Position numbers and translations under genes: made by a program
Assembly: GCA_949841595.1 (NCBI GenBank)
Contig: CATKZB010000010.1
Span: 1-39,881 of the forward strand
Direction: 5' to 3'
Source: an uncultured Christensenella sp.
GTDB taxonomy: Bacteria; Bacillota; Clostridia; Christensenellales; UBA1242
DNA length: 39,881 nucleotides
Notes under the pieces: generated by a model
Told to the model about the DNA's origin: nothing
The model's database searches: none
What the model saw: the letters and a program-made list of their open reading frames with translations, nothing else
Part shown: one piece after another, positions 2,017 to 37,729 of the stretch
Numbering within the stretch: position 1 is the first letter of the stretch
Layout: every line of letters begins with the position of its first letter

Positions 2017-2055
2017 TGTAATTAAATTACAAAATATGAAGGTTTGTGATATAAT
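2017..2055 (+). promoter_or_regulatory. Promoter of pnuC1 with overlapping palindrome; leaderless geometry
   Basis: TTACAA (2027-2032), 17-bp spacer, TGA-TATAAT (-10 at 2050-2055), then exactly six bases (GTATAT) and the ATG at 2062. A perfect 15-bp dyad, TGTAATTAAATTACA (2017-2031), covers the -35 and is a plausible operator. No Shine-Dalgarno lies between the -10 and the ATG, so the transcript probably starts at the start codon. Confidence 0.65.
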
Positions 2056-2061
2056 GTATAT

Positions 2062-2796
2062 ATGAAATTAAAGACATGGAAAGGTTATAATTTAATTGAT
2101 GCTTTTTTGCTTGGTGGGGGAATTCTCACAATCTTAGTAACTGCAATAATATTTAAATCCAATTGGCTTGTTATTGTAAATTCATTGCTTGGAATTTGTT
2201 GCGTTTTTATGCAAGCAAAAGGTAAAATTGCGACTCAATTTATTGGTGTTATTTGGTTTGTATTTTATTGTTATTTGTCCTATCAACAAAAGTATTATGG
2301 TGAAACAATTCTATATGCAACAATCATGATACCACTTTACATTTATGGAATAATTAGTTGGCTTGCACATAGGGACAAAAAAGACAATGTTGTGATCATA
2401 AAAAATAAAATAAGTTTAACAGAACTACTTATTTTTCTGTCGATTTGGCTTTGTGTGGACGTTGGAGTTTTCTTTCTTCTTCAAACTCTTAACACAGCAC
2501 AGCTTTGGCTCTCAACAATTGCTTTTTGTACAATGATTCCTAGTGTGTATTTGCTTATGCGCCGAAATAAATGGAATCAATTATTATTTTTAATAAATGA
2601 TATTGTCCTTTGCATTTTGTGGCAAACACTTGTCTATAAAGGCGATTATAGCTTTATTCCTATCTTGTGTTATCAAGTTTTTCAAATTATTTACGACGCA
2701 TATGGAATGTTTGAATGGGTAAAACTTGAAAAGAAACAAAAAAATGAAAATTTGGAAGAATTGGAAACAACAAACAACATAAAAGGAGATAAATGA
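2062..2796 (+). CDS. PnuC-family vitamin transporter (copy 1)
   Basis: 244 residues, about seven membrane helices, with a charged C-terminal tail. The family core is QQKYYGETILYATIMIPLYI followed by YGIISWL, matching the YGE...W signature of PnuC-type facilitators, which move nicotinamide riboside (PnuC), thiamine (PnuT) or riboflavin (PnuX). The substrate cannot be fixed from sequence, and no riboswitch is visible upstream. The start is the only Met before the first helix; it has no ribosome site and sits six bases after the -10. The stop overlaps the GNAT start (ATGA, 2793-2796). A paralogue lies at 12505-13245; both share the HRDKKDNVV/NRNKENNVV loop and the LLQ-FNTA/LNTA motif. Confidence 0.85.
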   Translation: MKLKTWKGYNLIDAFLLGGGILTILVTAIIFKSNWLVIVNSLLGICCVFMQAKGKIATQFIGVIWFVFYCYLSYQQKYYGETILYATIMIPLYIYGIISWLAHRDKKDNVVIIKNKISLTELLIFLSIWLCVDVGVFFLLQTLNTAQLWLSTIAFCTMIPSVYLLMRRNKWNQLLFLINDIVLCILWQTLVYKGDYSFIPILCYQVFQIIYDAYGMFEWVKLEKKQKNENLEELETTNNIKGDK

Positions 2797-3286
2797 TTAT
2801 GAATTATAAAATAGATTTAGTTAGAAAGAATGAACTAAAAGAATGTGCAAAAATTTTAAGAAATATTTACAACAATAATGTGTTAAGTGAAGGTTGGACA
2901 GAAACAACCTCTTTAAATACTTGTAAGTTTTTCTTTAAACAAAACAGAGATTTGTTTTTTGTAGCAAAAAATGATAAGGGGGGGTAATAGGATTTACCTA
3001 TGGCTTTATAAAACCTTGGGCACACGGGAATATGCTTATGATTGAAGAAATATCTGTTGATGAAAATCATAGAAAACAAGGTATTGCAAAATCACTTATG
3101 TTTGCACAAATTTCGAAAGCAAAAGAAAAATACAAAATAACAAATATTATGGGTGAGACATATTTAAACAAAAATGCTAAGTGGATACCATTTGATTGGT
3201 ATAAAAATATTGGCTTTTCAAAGATAGATGATTTGTTTTTAATGGATGGCGAAACAGACACCATTTTATCCAAATTAAAAAAATAA
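2793..3286 (+). pseudogene. GNAT-family N-acetyltransferase interrupted at a G7 tract
   Basis: Frame one (from ATG 2793, ribosome site AAAGGAG) gives 64 residues ending AKNDKGG at a TAA directly after seven G residues (2978-2984). The -1 frame continues without a break as VIGFTYGFIKPWAHGN, MLMIEEISVDENHRKQGIA and on to the stop at 3286, including the acetyl-CoA loop HRKQGIAKSL typical of GNAT enzymes. Restoring the frame needs one extra G (or two fewer), giving about 164 residues, normal for the family. The substrate is unknown. It is translationally coupled to pnuC1. The break may be a sequencing error, slipped-strand phase variation, -1 ribosomal frameshifting, or a true null mutation. Confidence 0.8.
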
Positions 3287-3298
3287 AAATTTTCAATA

Positions 3299-3359
3299 AA
3301 AAAAACAAACTCATAGATATTGATGTGTATTCAACCAGATTTAATGAGTTTGTTTTTTT
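3299..3359. terminator. Bidirectional terminator between GNAT and pyruvate kinase
   Basis: AAAAAAACAAACTCAT (about 3299-3314) pairs with ATGAGTTTGTTTTTTT (3344-3359) around a 29-nt loop. The A-rich left arm gives a U-run on the minus strand too, serving the convergent pyk gene. Confidence 0.65.
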
Positions 3360-3373
3360 GTTAGTTTCAAAGT
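3356..3373. repeat. 18-bp repeat, copy 1 (pyk 3' end)
   Basis: TTTTGTTAGTTTCAAAGT occurs here and again at 22534-22551. Both copies sit between a terminator U-run and the 3' end of a minus-strand gene (pyk, ung). Homology continues weakly downstream of the identical core with transition differences only over the next 11 bases. Confidence 0.7.
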
Positions 3374-3393
3374 TTGCAGTCCTTAACTTATAC

Positions 3394-35761: not shown

Positions 35762-35782
35762 GCTCTACTAAGGAAGGTAAAT

Positions 35783-37162
35783 ATGATAAATTTTTGTGGA
35801 AATTTTAATTGTGGTTGCAGGCGAGGTTTCCCAATATTTTTAAAAGGCCCAACTGGACCAACCGGCCCAACTGGTAGTACTGGTCAAAGAGGTCCAACTG
35901 GAGCCACCGGTCCTACTGGCCCTGCTGGAGGTTCAACAGGTGCCACCGGTCCAACCGGTCCAACTGGACCAACAGGGCTTATAGGACCAACTGGTGTTAC
36001 AGGAGCAACGGGTGCTACAGGAATAACAGGTCCAACCGGTCCAACTGGAAATACAGGAGCCACAGGAGCAACAGGTTTAACTGGTGCCACAGGTTTAATA
36101 GGTCCAACCGGTCCAACTGGAGCAAATGGTATAACGGGTCCGACAGGAGCAACAGGAAACACTGGAGCAACAGGACCTACAGGTTCAACTGGTGCAACAG
36201 GCGTTACCGGACCGACTGGTCCAACGGGCCCAACTGGACCAATAGGTTTGAGCATCACTGGTCCAACAGGCCCAACCGGAGTAACAGGCTCTACTGGAAT
36301 AACCGGCCCAACCGGTCCAACGGGGTTAAGTATAACTGGAGCCACCGGTCCAACTGGTGCAGATGGATCGACAGGCCCTACTGGTGCAACGGGAAATACT
36401 GGCGCTGATGGAGCAACAGGTCCTACTGGCCCAACAGGAGCAACGGGTCCGACAGGTGCTGATGGTTTGATAGGTCCAACTGGTCCCACTGGTGCAGATG
36501 GTTCGACAGGACCAACAGGAGCCACTGGAAATACCGGTGCAGACGGAGCAACCGGTCCAACTGGCGCTACGGGAAACACTGGTCCAACCGGAGCAAATGG
36601 ACTAATAGGTCCAACTGGAGCCACTGGAGCAAATGGTGCTACAGGACCAACTGGACCAACAGGTCCAACGGGTGCTACAGGTCCAACGGGTCCAGCAGGC
36701 GTAGCAGGATTGAGTATCACAGGCCCTACAGGTGCTACTGGAGCAACTGGTCCTAATATTACAGCAAATTCTGCTTTTGCAGCGAATACAACTTCACCAA
36801 CAATTGCAGTTGTTGTTGGAGGAACTGACATTCCACTTCCAAGCAATCAAATAACTACTGCAAACATTACACTTAATGGCGCAAACACAACTTTTACAGT
36901 TGCCAATGCTGGTAAATATGAAATAAGTTATGAAGTTCACTTAACTGCAGGTGTTGCTGCAGGAACACGTCTTATGATAAATGGAGCTGCTTTCGCTCCA
37001 TCAACAATTCAACCATTATTGACACTTTCTAGTTTCAACAACAAGGTGATTGTCAATTTAACAGCAGGATCAACAGTAGCATTGCAATTGTTTGGTCTTG
37101 TTGCAACTGCAATTTTGCAGTCCGGCGCTGGTGCCAATGTTTCAATTGTGCAACTTGCTTAA
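35783..37162 (+). CDS. Collagen-like surface protein with BclA-type C-terminal domain
   Basis: 459 residues from ATG 35783 (AAGGAAGG upstream; ORF-extending codons upstream lie in the promoter region). A short Cys-rich N-terminus ([20 protein letters not shown]) precedes about 300 residues of G-X-T/G-P-T repeats (22-325), interrupted by one extra Gly (49) and three GLSIT segments (near 155, 181 and 309). The last 134 residues form a beta-rich trimerisation domain ([20 protein letters not shown]..., [17 protein letters not shown]), as in the exosporium glycoprotein BclA. Threonines at the third repeat position are typical sites for O-glycans. It probably forms surface or spore filaments. DNA-level repeats include a 135-bp period within 36360-36590. 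Confidence 0.9.
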
Positions 37163-37191
37163 ATCTCGCTTAAAAATGCAACATTTAATTT

Positions 37192-37217
37192 AAAAAGGAG
37201 ACATATGTCTCCTTTTT
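37192..37217. terminator. Bidirectional terminator between collagen gene and glycosylase gene
   Basis: Perfect 26-bp palindrome, AAAAAGGAGACA followed by its complement, with U-runs on both strands. Confidence 0.88.
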
Positions 37218-37226
37218 GATTTTTAT

Positions 37227-37694
37227 TTATTGCAAAAGTTCTTTTCTCCAGATTTCAAAATCAAATTTTGGATTTGCAGAACTTGTGGAAGGTAGGTAGA
37301 TGATAGGTAAGGTTGTTGTCACATTTTGCATAAGAAGATTGTATGCAGTTTTTCCATTGCAAAATATTTTTTTAACTTTTGTATGAGGTGGCAAAAGAAA
37401 GGAAATATCTGCTATTTTCTTTTTTGATTTTTCTAAAGAGTTGTCAGCAGATCCTGTAAGATCACTTTCTTCTACAACATCATAAAGTGCTATACCATAT
37501 TTTAATAAAAAAGCTTTTTTATTTTCAATTTCATCGGTGATTGTTTCATTAAATATTTTTGCCAAGGTTTTCCAAAAGCGATTTTGTTTGTTTCCATAAT
37601 AAAAACCTTCCATACGACTTTTGACGCTTGGAAAACTTCCTAGAATCAGGATTTTGGAATCTTTATTGTATACTGCTGGAAATCCTTGATGCAT
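37227..37694 (-). CDS. Hypoxanthine-DNA glycosylase (UDG superfamily, HDG type)
   Basis: 155 residues. It removes deaminated bases (hypoxanthine from adenine deamination). Motif 1 is ILGSFPSVKSRMEGFYYGNK, continuing to QNRFW; motif 2 is LPSTSSANP near the C-terminus; IFCNGKTAYNLL matches the family centre. Length is normal (about 160). The promoter TTGACA, 17 bp ending TGC, TTTACT (37701-37729) places ATG 37694 exactly six bases after the -10, and no ribosome site is present, again the leaderless layout. With ung it is the second base-excision enzyme here arranged this way. Confidence 0.87.
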   Translation of the reverse strand: MHQGFPAVYNKDSKILILGSFPSVKSRMEGFYYGNKQNRFWKTLAKIFNETITDEIENKKAFLLKYGIALYDVVEESDLTGSADNSLEKSKKKIADISFLLPPHTKVKKIFCNGKTAYNLLMQNVTTTLPIIYLPSTSSANPKFDFEIWRKELLQ

Positions 37695-37700
37695 GTTTAT

Positions 37701-37729
37701 AGTAAAGCAATTTAAAAATATAATGTCAA
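37701..37729 (-). promoter_or_regulatory. Promoter of hypoxanthine-DNA glycosylase (leaderless geometry)
   Basis: On the minus strand: TTGACA (37724-37729), 17-bp spacer ending TGC, TTTACT (37701-37706), ATAAAC, ATG. Confidence 0.7.

Follow-up and report, generated by a model that had tools for sequence, protein, structure and literature searches.

Six genes on both strands of a 39,881-nt stretch of DNA (hereafter the window; contig CATKZB010000010.1, assembly GCA_949841595.1) from an uncultured Christensenella sp. are very probably members of a leaderless gene class that extends across the genome, in which the mRNA would begin with the A of the AUG. Judging from sequence patterns, about 6% of the genes (about one in sixteen) seem to be leaderless in this small-genome clostridial lineage. 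Transcription from the A of the AUG is proposed since the pyrimidine at position -1, the -35 or TGn elements, the gap upstream of the genes and the restriction to ATG starts all fit it.

Promoter and start layout in the window

The first-pass annotation had described six genes with a -10-like hexamer, a spacer of exactly six bases (N6) and an ATG, lacking a Shine-Dalgarno (SD) sequence. A direct check of the window located every hexamer/spacer/ATG triple exactly (Table 1). An SD was defined as any of the 4-mers AGGA, GGAG or GAGG at 3-13 nt from the start, and none was found before the six genes; the count of five genes with TGn before the -10 was likewise reproduced, the exception being gpr, with GGT. 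A full -35 element precedes only the hypoxanthine glycosylase gene (TTGACA, 17-bp spacer, 37724-37729), the match being 4/6 for pnuC1, ung and the glycosyltransferase gene and 2/6 for xre and gpr. Five of the six carry a TANNNT motif that begins 12 bp before the start codon, a pattern which the TTTACT of the hypoxanthine glycosylase gene does not fit. Since this hexamer matches TATAAT at only 4/6 positions, with T at position 2, its site is uncounted in the scans below; with the poorest -10, it is the least secure of the six cases.

Table 1. Putative promoter and start regions of the six genes, in window positions
Gene	Region	Strand	Elements	Gene span and product	Remark
pnuC1	2047..2064	+	TGA TATAAT GTATAT ATG	2062-2796, nicotinamide riboside transporter PnuC	
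xre	9799..9816	-	TGA TAAAAT ATGTTC ATG	9595-9801, Xre-family HTH regulator	also recovered by genome scan
ung	23229..23266	-	TTGAAT N17 (ending TGC) TATACT GACCAT ATG	22572-23231, uracil-DNA glycosylase	
gpr	23694..23711	+	GGT TATATT TCTTTT ATG	23709-24461, GPR endopeptidase	also fits GGnnAnnnT
glycosyltransferase	26817..26854	+	TTGCTA N17 (ending TGA) TATAAT AAAATT ATG	26852-28069, diglucosyl diacylglycerol synthase-like	
hypoxanthine glycosylase	37692..37729	-	TTGACA N17 (ending TGC) TTTACT ATAAAC ATG	37227-37694, DNA-deoxyinosine glycosylase	

A genome-wide peak and its recurrence in relatives

Hexamers with at least 5/6 matches to TATAAT were scored by their offset to the start in genes without an SD, and the counts were compared with 2000 mononucleotide (single-base) shuffles. 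Briefly, genes were predicted with a purpose-written caller, which covered ~75% of the sampled DNA and made 16 calls on shuffled DNA. Within the window, an N6 -10 was found in 5/16 non-SD genes (shuffles: mean 0.63, maximum 5), and in a held-out set of 400 kb from the same genome, outside the window, in 15/77 (mean 2.88, maximum 11), where the offset profile gave 8 at N1, 6 at N7 and at most 5 at every other non-N6 offset. For the own genome the count was 20/93, and two congeners gave 10/38 (G074) and 15/62 (G026), with other offsets averaging 1.3 and 1.4, respectively. The sharp N6 peak that the first-pass annotation had anticipated for a genome-wide scan of -10/start distances was thus obtained in the own genome, the held-out DNA and both congeners. 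Offsets N0-N1 were likewise raised in the own-genome and held-out profiles. The 30 scan rows comprised five of the original window genes, 17 that were kept and eight that were dropped because of a GTG/TTG start, an SD alternative or being the second ATG of one gene.

When the three genomes were pooled, the profile of ATG starts reached 44 at N6 and at most 11 at other offsets; no peak was found for GTG (2) and TTG (5) starts, and in-frame internal ATGs showed a three-base periodicity without an N6 peak. TGn or a -35 match of at least 4/6 accompanied 36/44 N6 sites versus 33/103 sites at other offsets (N5 and N7 excluded), an enrichment which indicates that the TA signal at N6 is a likely promoter. 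With the same exclusions, the base at -1 was a pyrimidine in 43/44 versus 69/103. Only one of 41 N6 genes was preceded at a distance of up to 20 nt by a gene on the same strand, versus 175 of 488 SD genes, and the upstream neighbour lay on the opposite strand in 23/41 versus 108/488; with the upstream gap as a proxy, N6 genes are predicted to open their transcription units. DNA repair and recombination functions were assigned to 13/43 N6 genes, compared with 3/30 SD-led genes drawn at random from the own genome (Exo VII small subunit, RusA and RmuC; Fisher p = 0.048, or 0.051 with a denominator of 44), a bias that is only suggestive, since genes were categorised manually, with TatD and tyrosine recombinases included, and RuvC and a recombinase were each counted in two genomes. 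The 43 genes comprise the six of the window, 17 others from the own genome and, from G074/G026, 20 out of 23 matches, two of the other three being split across stretches and one omitted.

Conservation was assessed for five genes in the best 30 loci per gene, own included (for ung, e.g., 30 of 56 matching genomes). As these loci are related, the counts are not independent events: N6 occurred in 78/146 usable loci, with an SD in 0/78 of these versus 37/68 of the remaining ones, and with a pyrimidine at -1 in 77/78. For ung, the layout was found in 25/30 loci of the genus and, outside its own family, in 9/27 loci of other families, while the flanks (about -50 to -17) share just 38% identity across loci. 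For gpr it was found in 26/29 usable loci, own included, 15 of the 26 carrying CAAAAT, which makes a poor -10 of the housekeeping type. In alignments, the majority of ung and gpr orthologues begin at residue 1, with the ATG in the same place. Their profiles also peak elsewhere (gpr: N3 14, N27 16, N34 12; ung: N11 13), and we take these further peaks to echo the conserved flanking sequence and TGn. The glycosyltransferase gene had N6 in 10/29 usable loci, own included, and an SD in 13 others. For pnuC1 the figure was 6/28 usable loci, including its own and the nearest (82% identity), and the next-nearest (L146) is SD-led; below ~60% identity, many pnuC homologues probably represent other paralogues, and the group is little informative. 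Finally, 11/30 loci of the hypoxanthine glycosylase had N6, its own not among them, and in these 11 the start is displaced upstream by 1-11 codons relative to the aligned one, with the -10 shifted along, whereas N6 was found in 0/6 orthologues above 60% identity, three of which have an SD. So, the layout of this gene is present in the window as described, but its site is not common to its closest orthologues.

Raw pattern counts, taken without gene context, were used only pooled and against N9 as control, because per-genome counts are too noisy. The N6/N9 ratio was 4.5 in the genus, 2.6 and patchy order-wide, and 1.2 in the phylum outside the order (248 genomes). A genome of another family (G037) gave no N6 peak, and G043 had a weak profile (N6 8, N7 7, N10 7), in which the -1 pyrimidine is uninformative (7/7 at N6, 46/53 elsewhere). 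The conservation in relatives that had been asked about is seen in the orthologues of the window genes: several genes retain this putative promoter layout across a diverse genus, and it is uncommon elsewhere in the phylum.

Alternative readings and proposed mechanism

A genome with a GC content of 33%, in which TATAAT-N0-28-ATG occurs 722 times, could offer N6 cases to anyone picking them by hand, yet chance is hardly credible given that the held-out count exceeded the maximum of all 2000 shuffles, that two congeners peak at the same offset and that the spacing is preserved although the flanks have diverged. It is also improbable that the N6 promoters, though genuine, play a minor part and that the main mRNA, with a leader, starts further upstream, as reported for Clostridium phytofermentans. 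The N6 genes were selected as SD-less, but the orthologues tell the same independently (none of the 78 N6 loci among the best 30 per gene has an SD), and a leadered transcript would have no ribosome binding site available. Even less probable are misassigned starts, with the true ones located downstream and preceded by an SD, so that the promoters would give short leaders: the genome is a draft without proteomics and the caller placed the hypoxanthine glycosylase start 27 codons downstream, but no in-frame start with an SD was found within 30 codons downstream in any of the six genes, the ATG is mostly shared by ung and gpr orthologues, and the peak is bound to ATG, not GTG/TTG.

For gpr alone, a forespore sigma-F/G promoter comes close to an even chance; the gene would still be leaderless, and the six would not form one promoter class. 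Promoters of this kind have a -10 of the GGnnAnnnT type, which can be read by eye in 8/9 gpr loci with more than 60% identity. A -35 is lacking in the own gpr (2/6), CAAAAT occurs in 15/19 loci below 45% identity, a block similar to TCAAGTAAAATAAATATTTTTT lying upstream in many of them, and the genome codes for a 257-aa Sigma70 r2-r3-r4 protein. However, TATATT also fits a housekeeping -10, and a single regular expression written for the gpr block of the far clade gave no further match in DNA sampled from three genomes. Of the stable sub-class that had been suggested for the six genes, the recurrence of the layout in orthologues stands, while a single promoter class is not established.

Under the leaderless reading, RNA polymerase would recognise an extended TGn -10, or a -35 plus a -10, and the promoter would be set so that the A of the ATG falls on the seventh base past the -10 and, as a purine following a pyrimidine, offers a preferred transcription start. 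The resulting mRNA would have the AUG as its 5' end, on which ribosomes would start without SD pairing, most genes of the same genome using an SD. Entry of 70S ribosomes or IF2-assisted entry, both known for leaderless mRNA in other bacteria, may be the pathway, and ATG-only use is compatible with it. A speculative and rather doubtful extension is an order-specific leaderless programme, expanded into a conserved set rich in DNA repair/recombination genes and Xre regulators and translated separately from the SD-led majority (e.g., under stress or initiation-factor shifts), with ung and the glycosyltransferase gene switching modes in evolution. The findings would extend leaderless initiation to a clostridial order, marking some families and not others, so that families with and without such genes could serve as a natural series for switching between SD and leaderless modes and for accompanying ribosome features. 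Also, SD-tuned gene finders could misplace starts for ~6% of genes in such genomes.

Comparison with known leaderless systems

Lambda cI, a phage gene, codes for a Cro/C1-type repressor and has a leaderless mRNA when transcribed from PRM; the same is proposed here for xre. The first-pass annotation had called leaderless genes rare in Bacillota and a sub-class new for this lineage; such genes are not new for Bacillota, being already known in 56/209 Firmicutes genomes and at ~9% in streptococci. The TA-led genes of the former are reported to be concentrated in Lactobacillales and Mycoplasma (Zheng 2011, PMC3160421); they share with the present ones a TANNNT ~12 bp before the start, no SD and, in several low-GC genomes, a TG peak before the -10, whereas the present lineage is clostridial, with ~6% of its genes in this class and a layout that recurs in orthologues. 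In Streptococcus pyogenes, 8.6% of mRNAs are reported as leaderless, 81% of those also in S. agalactiae, and thus conservation of the mode has a precedent in Bacillota (PMC6431027); that work used TSS mapping, while ours concerns another class and relies on sequence. For cultured clostridia, published reports give about 2-3% leaderless TSS (PMC9045289), about 2% with about 70 mRNAs having a 5' UTR below 10 nt (PMC6873888), leaderless transcripts for 15 genes (PMC7438776) and 4% of intergenic TSS (PMC5171806), described there as few or low-level cases. The leaderless genes of C. phytofermentans reportedly keep a ribosome binding site, unlike the present N6 genes, which have no SD and a layout recurrent across the genus. 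Among the literature matches listed (e.g., best 20 of 90 and 20 of 357), none had a title that dealt with leaderless genes in comparable uncultured clostridia. The novelty is the lineage, a clostridial order with ~6% of such genes, and not leaderless genes as such.

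N6 spacing in the window and across the genome

The six window genes read by the first-pass annotation as probably leaderless all show the layout claimed for them, a -10 hexamer six bases ahead of the ATG (N6), with no Shine-Dalgarno (SD) site at any of the six and the extended -10 element TGn at five. Their names were likewise correct (PnuC, Xre-type HTH, uracil-DNA glycosylase, GPR endopeptidase, diacylglycerol glycosyltransferase and DNA-deoxyinosine glycosylase, here hypoxanthine glycosylase), the glycosyltransferase match scoring under the NCBIfam cut-off. The window is an entire contig of a 1.13 Mb genome (16 contigs, completeness 97.9%).

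The scan of -10-to-start distances proposed in that annotation was run on the window plus 20 stretches (400 kb) of this genome, in which our own gene caller predicted 376 genes. Start choice was blind to the -10, all plausible ATGs and all offsets being counted. The upstream sequence was usable for 375 genes, of which 282 carried an SD ahead of at least one plausible start and 93 lacked one throughout. A hexamer matching TATAAT at five or more of six positions lay at N6 of a candidate ATG in 20 of the 93 SD-less genes, while the other offsets scored 0-6, except N1 (11). The peak persists in the 400 kb without the window (15/77 non-SD genes; mean 2.88 and maximum 11 in 2000 shuffles), and in-frame internal ATGs, used as a control, gave three-base periodicity only. 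With 200 kb sampled per relative, N6 was found in 10/38 and 15/62 non-SD genes of the congeners G074 and G026 (background, the mean of other offsets, 1.3 and 1.4). In genomes from other families of the order, the signal was weak in G043 (8/62, background 2.4; N7 and N10 both 7) and no N6 peak was seen in G037 (3/49, background 2.3). Pooled, the three genus genomes (697 genes) contain 43 N6 genes without SD (6.2%), 504 SD-led genes and 150 with neither.

Promoter character and gene content

The N6 sites are most likely promoters with a predicted +1 at the A of the ATG, because of their accessory elements, the pyrimidine at -1, the position of the genes and the confinement of the peak to ATG starts. 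TGn or a -35 (at least 4/6 of TTGACA, 16-18 bp spacing) was present at 36/44 N6 sites versus 33/103 at other offsets (excluding N5 and N7), and a pyrimidine directly 5' of the ATG at 43/44 versus 69/103; G043, kept out of these sums, gave 6/7 versus 13/53 and 7/7 versus 46/53, respectively. A same-strand gene lies close upstream of 1/41 N6 genes, versus 175/488 SD genes and 40/147 others, and the upstream neighbour is on the opposite strand for 23/41 N6 versus 108/488 SD genes.

Upstream of gpr, the -10 reads GGnnAnnnT in 8/9 close loci, and CAAAAT occurs in 15/19 distant loci, many with a block resembling TCAAGTAAAATAAATATTTTTT; judged from these motifs, the promoter may be of the forespore sigma type and simultaneously leaderless. 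The two named relatives picked up when gpr was searched for are uncultured Clostridia MAGs. Next to xre, two copies of the palindrome TTACATATATGTAA flank the -10 of a divergent promoter and are possibly Xre operators governing the divergent unit. Elsewhere in the window, an SD-preceded ATG lies out of frame with a 355-aa ORF that starts without SD, which may reflect a frameshift or a short ORF overlapping the longer one.

In the three genus genomes, N6 genes include RuvC, AddB, RecD2, UvrB, RarA/MgsA, a tyrosine recombinase, TatD, Der, Dus, a pseudouridine synthase, three Xre-type regulators, and ung with three more UDG-superfamily proteins, among them the hypoxanthine glycosylase. The bias to repair/recombination is suggestive only (p = 0.048), and the idea that these genes are translated separately is speculative. 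Three pairs of N6 genes, one member in the own genome and one in G026 (Table), have common Pfam families and similar N-termini and may be orthologous.

Table. Coordinates of paired N6 genes (locus handles) and of window features
Feature	Location	Second location or part
Tyrosine recombinase pair, both N6	L003:12213-13250 (own genome)	L185:4781-5806 (G026)
RuvC pair, both N6	L004:12941-13426 (own genome)	L185:17286-17771 (G026)
Pseudouridine synthase pair, both N6	L002:18066-18935 (own genome)	L184:13933-14823 (G026)
gpr upstream region (loci L024-L053)	window 23640-23711	
Palindrome TTACATATATGTAA	window 9842-9855	window 9876-9889
Plus-strand promoter divergent from xre	TTGACA 9836-9841	TATAAT 9859-9864
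ATG preceded by AAGGAG (region 10335-10400)	10335	
355-aa ORF, start	10375	

Conservation and spread

Matches were found in 50 (gpr), 45 (glycosyltransferase), 56 (ung), 33 (hypoxanthine glycosylase) and 31 (pnuC) of 61 genomes, and the best 30 loci per gene were analysed (hexamer at least 4/6, A at position 2, T at 6; ATG nearest the aligned start). As the first-pass annotation had asked of relatives, N6 recurs among these: gpr 26/29 usable, ung 25/30, glycosyltransferase 10/29 usable and pnuC 6/28 usable, own loci included, and hypoxanthine glycosylase 11/30, where the own site fails the rule. Since the loci are related, these counts are of sequences and not of independent events. Across the five genes, an SD was present at 0/78 N6 loci versus 37/68 remaining loci. 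The flank of ung N6 matches (about -50 to -17) is just 38% identical, yet the six-base spacing is constant; beyond the genus (matches in 27/30 genomes), 9 of 27 ung loci have N6, 16 SD and 2 neither, with other offsets at most 3. Glycosyltransferase loci above 60% identity have N6 in 9/10 usable cases, and the other 19 have N6 in 1 and SD in 13. For the hypoxanthine glycosylase, N6 was found in 0/6 orthologues above 60% identity among the best 30; in 11 others, start and -10 are jointly displaced 1-11 codons upstream.

The pattern TGNTATAAT-N6-ATG was also counted with N9 as the control spacing, the N6/N9 ratio being the fairer measure given that per-Mb rates depend on GC. The genus (10 genomes, own included) gave 118 versus 26 (12.1 per Mb; own genome 17, or 15 per Mb), and the whole order draw of 151 genomes 1186 versus 458. 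The excess is 3- to 5.6-fold in families f14, f25, f15, f17, f6, f3 and f29 and 1.6- to 2.1-fold in f20, f22, f11 and f28, with no enrichment over N9 in f4, f24, f18, f13 and f16; this range suggests that the leaderless mode was gained or lost repeatedly within the order. In 248 genomes of the phylum outside the order, counts were 870 versus 719 (ratio 1.2), thus a slight excess there as well, with no genome as high as 10 per Mb and one above 5.

Relation to known leaderless genes

In earlier reports, leaderless genes occur in 56/209 Firmicutes genomes, chiefly Lactobacillales and Mycoplasma, several low-GC genomes showing a TG peak (Zheng 2011, PMC3160421). They make up 8.6-9% in streptococci, where 81% of those in S. 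pyogenes are also leaderless in S. agalactiae (PMC6431027), about 2% in C. autoethanogenum (PMC6873888) and 2-3% in three solventogenic clostridial strains (PMC9045289). In C. phytofermentans the share is 4% among intergenic TSS, but the genes retain an RBS (PMC5171806); 15 genes are given for C. difficile (PMC7438776) and nine transcripts for M. gallisepticum. Given these cases, which include streptococci and cultured clostridia, leaderless genes are of an already-known kind, and the novelty here, as far as our literature searches reach, is the lineage and its patchy use of the leaderless mode.
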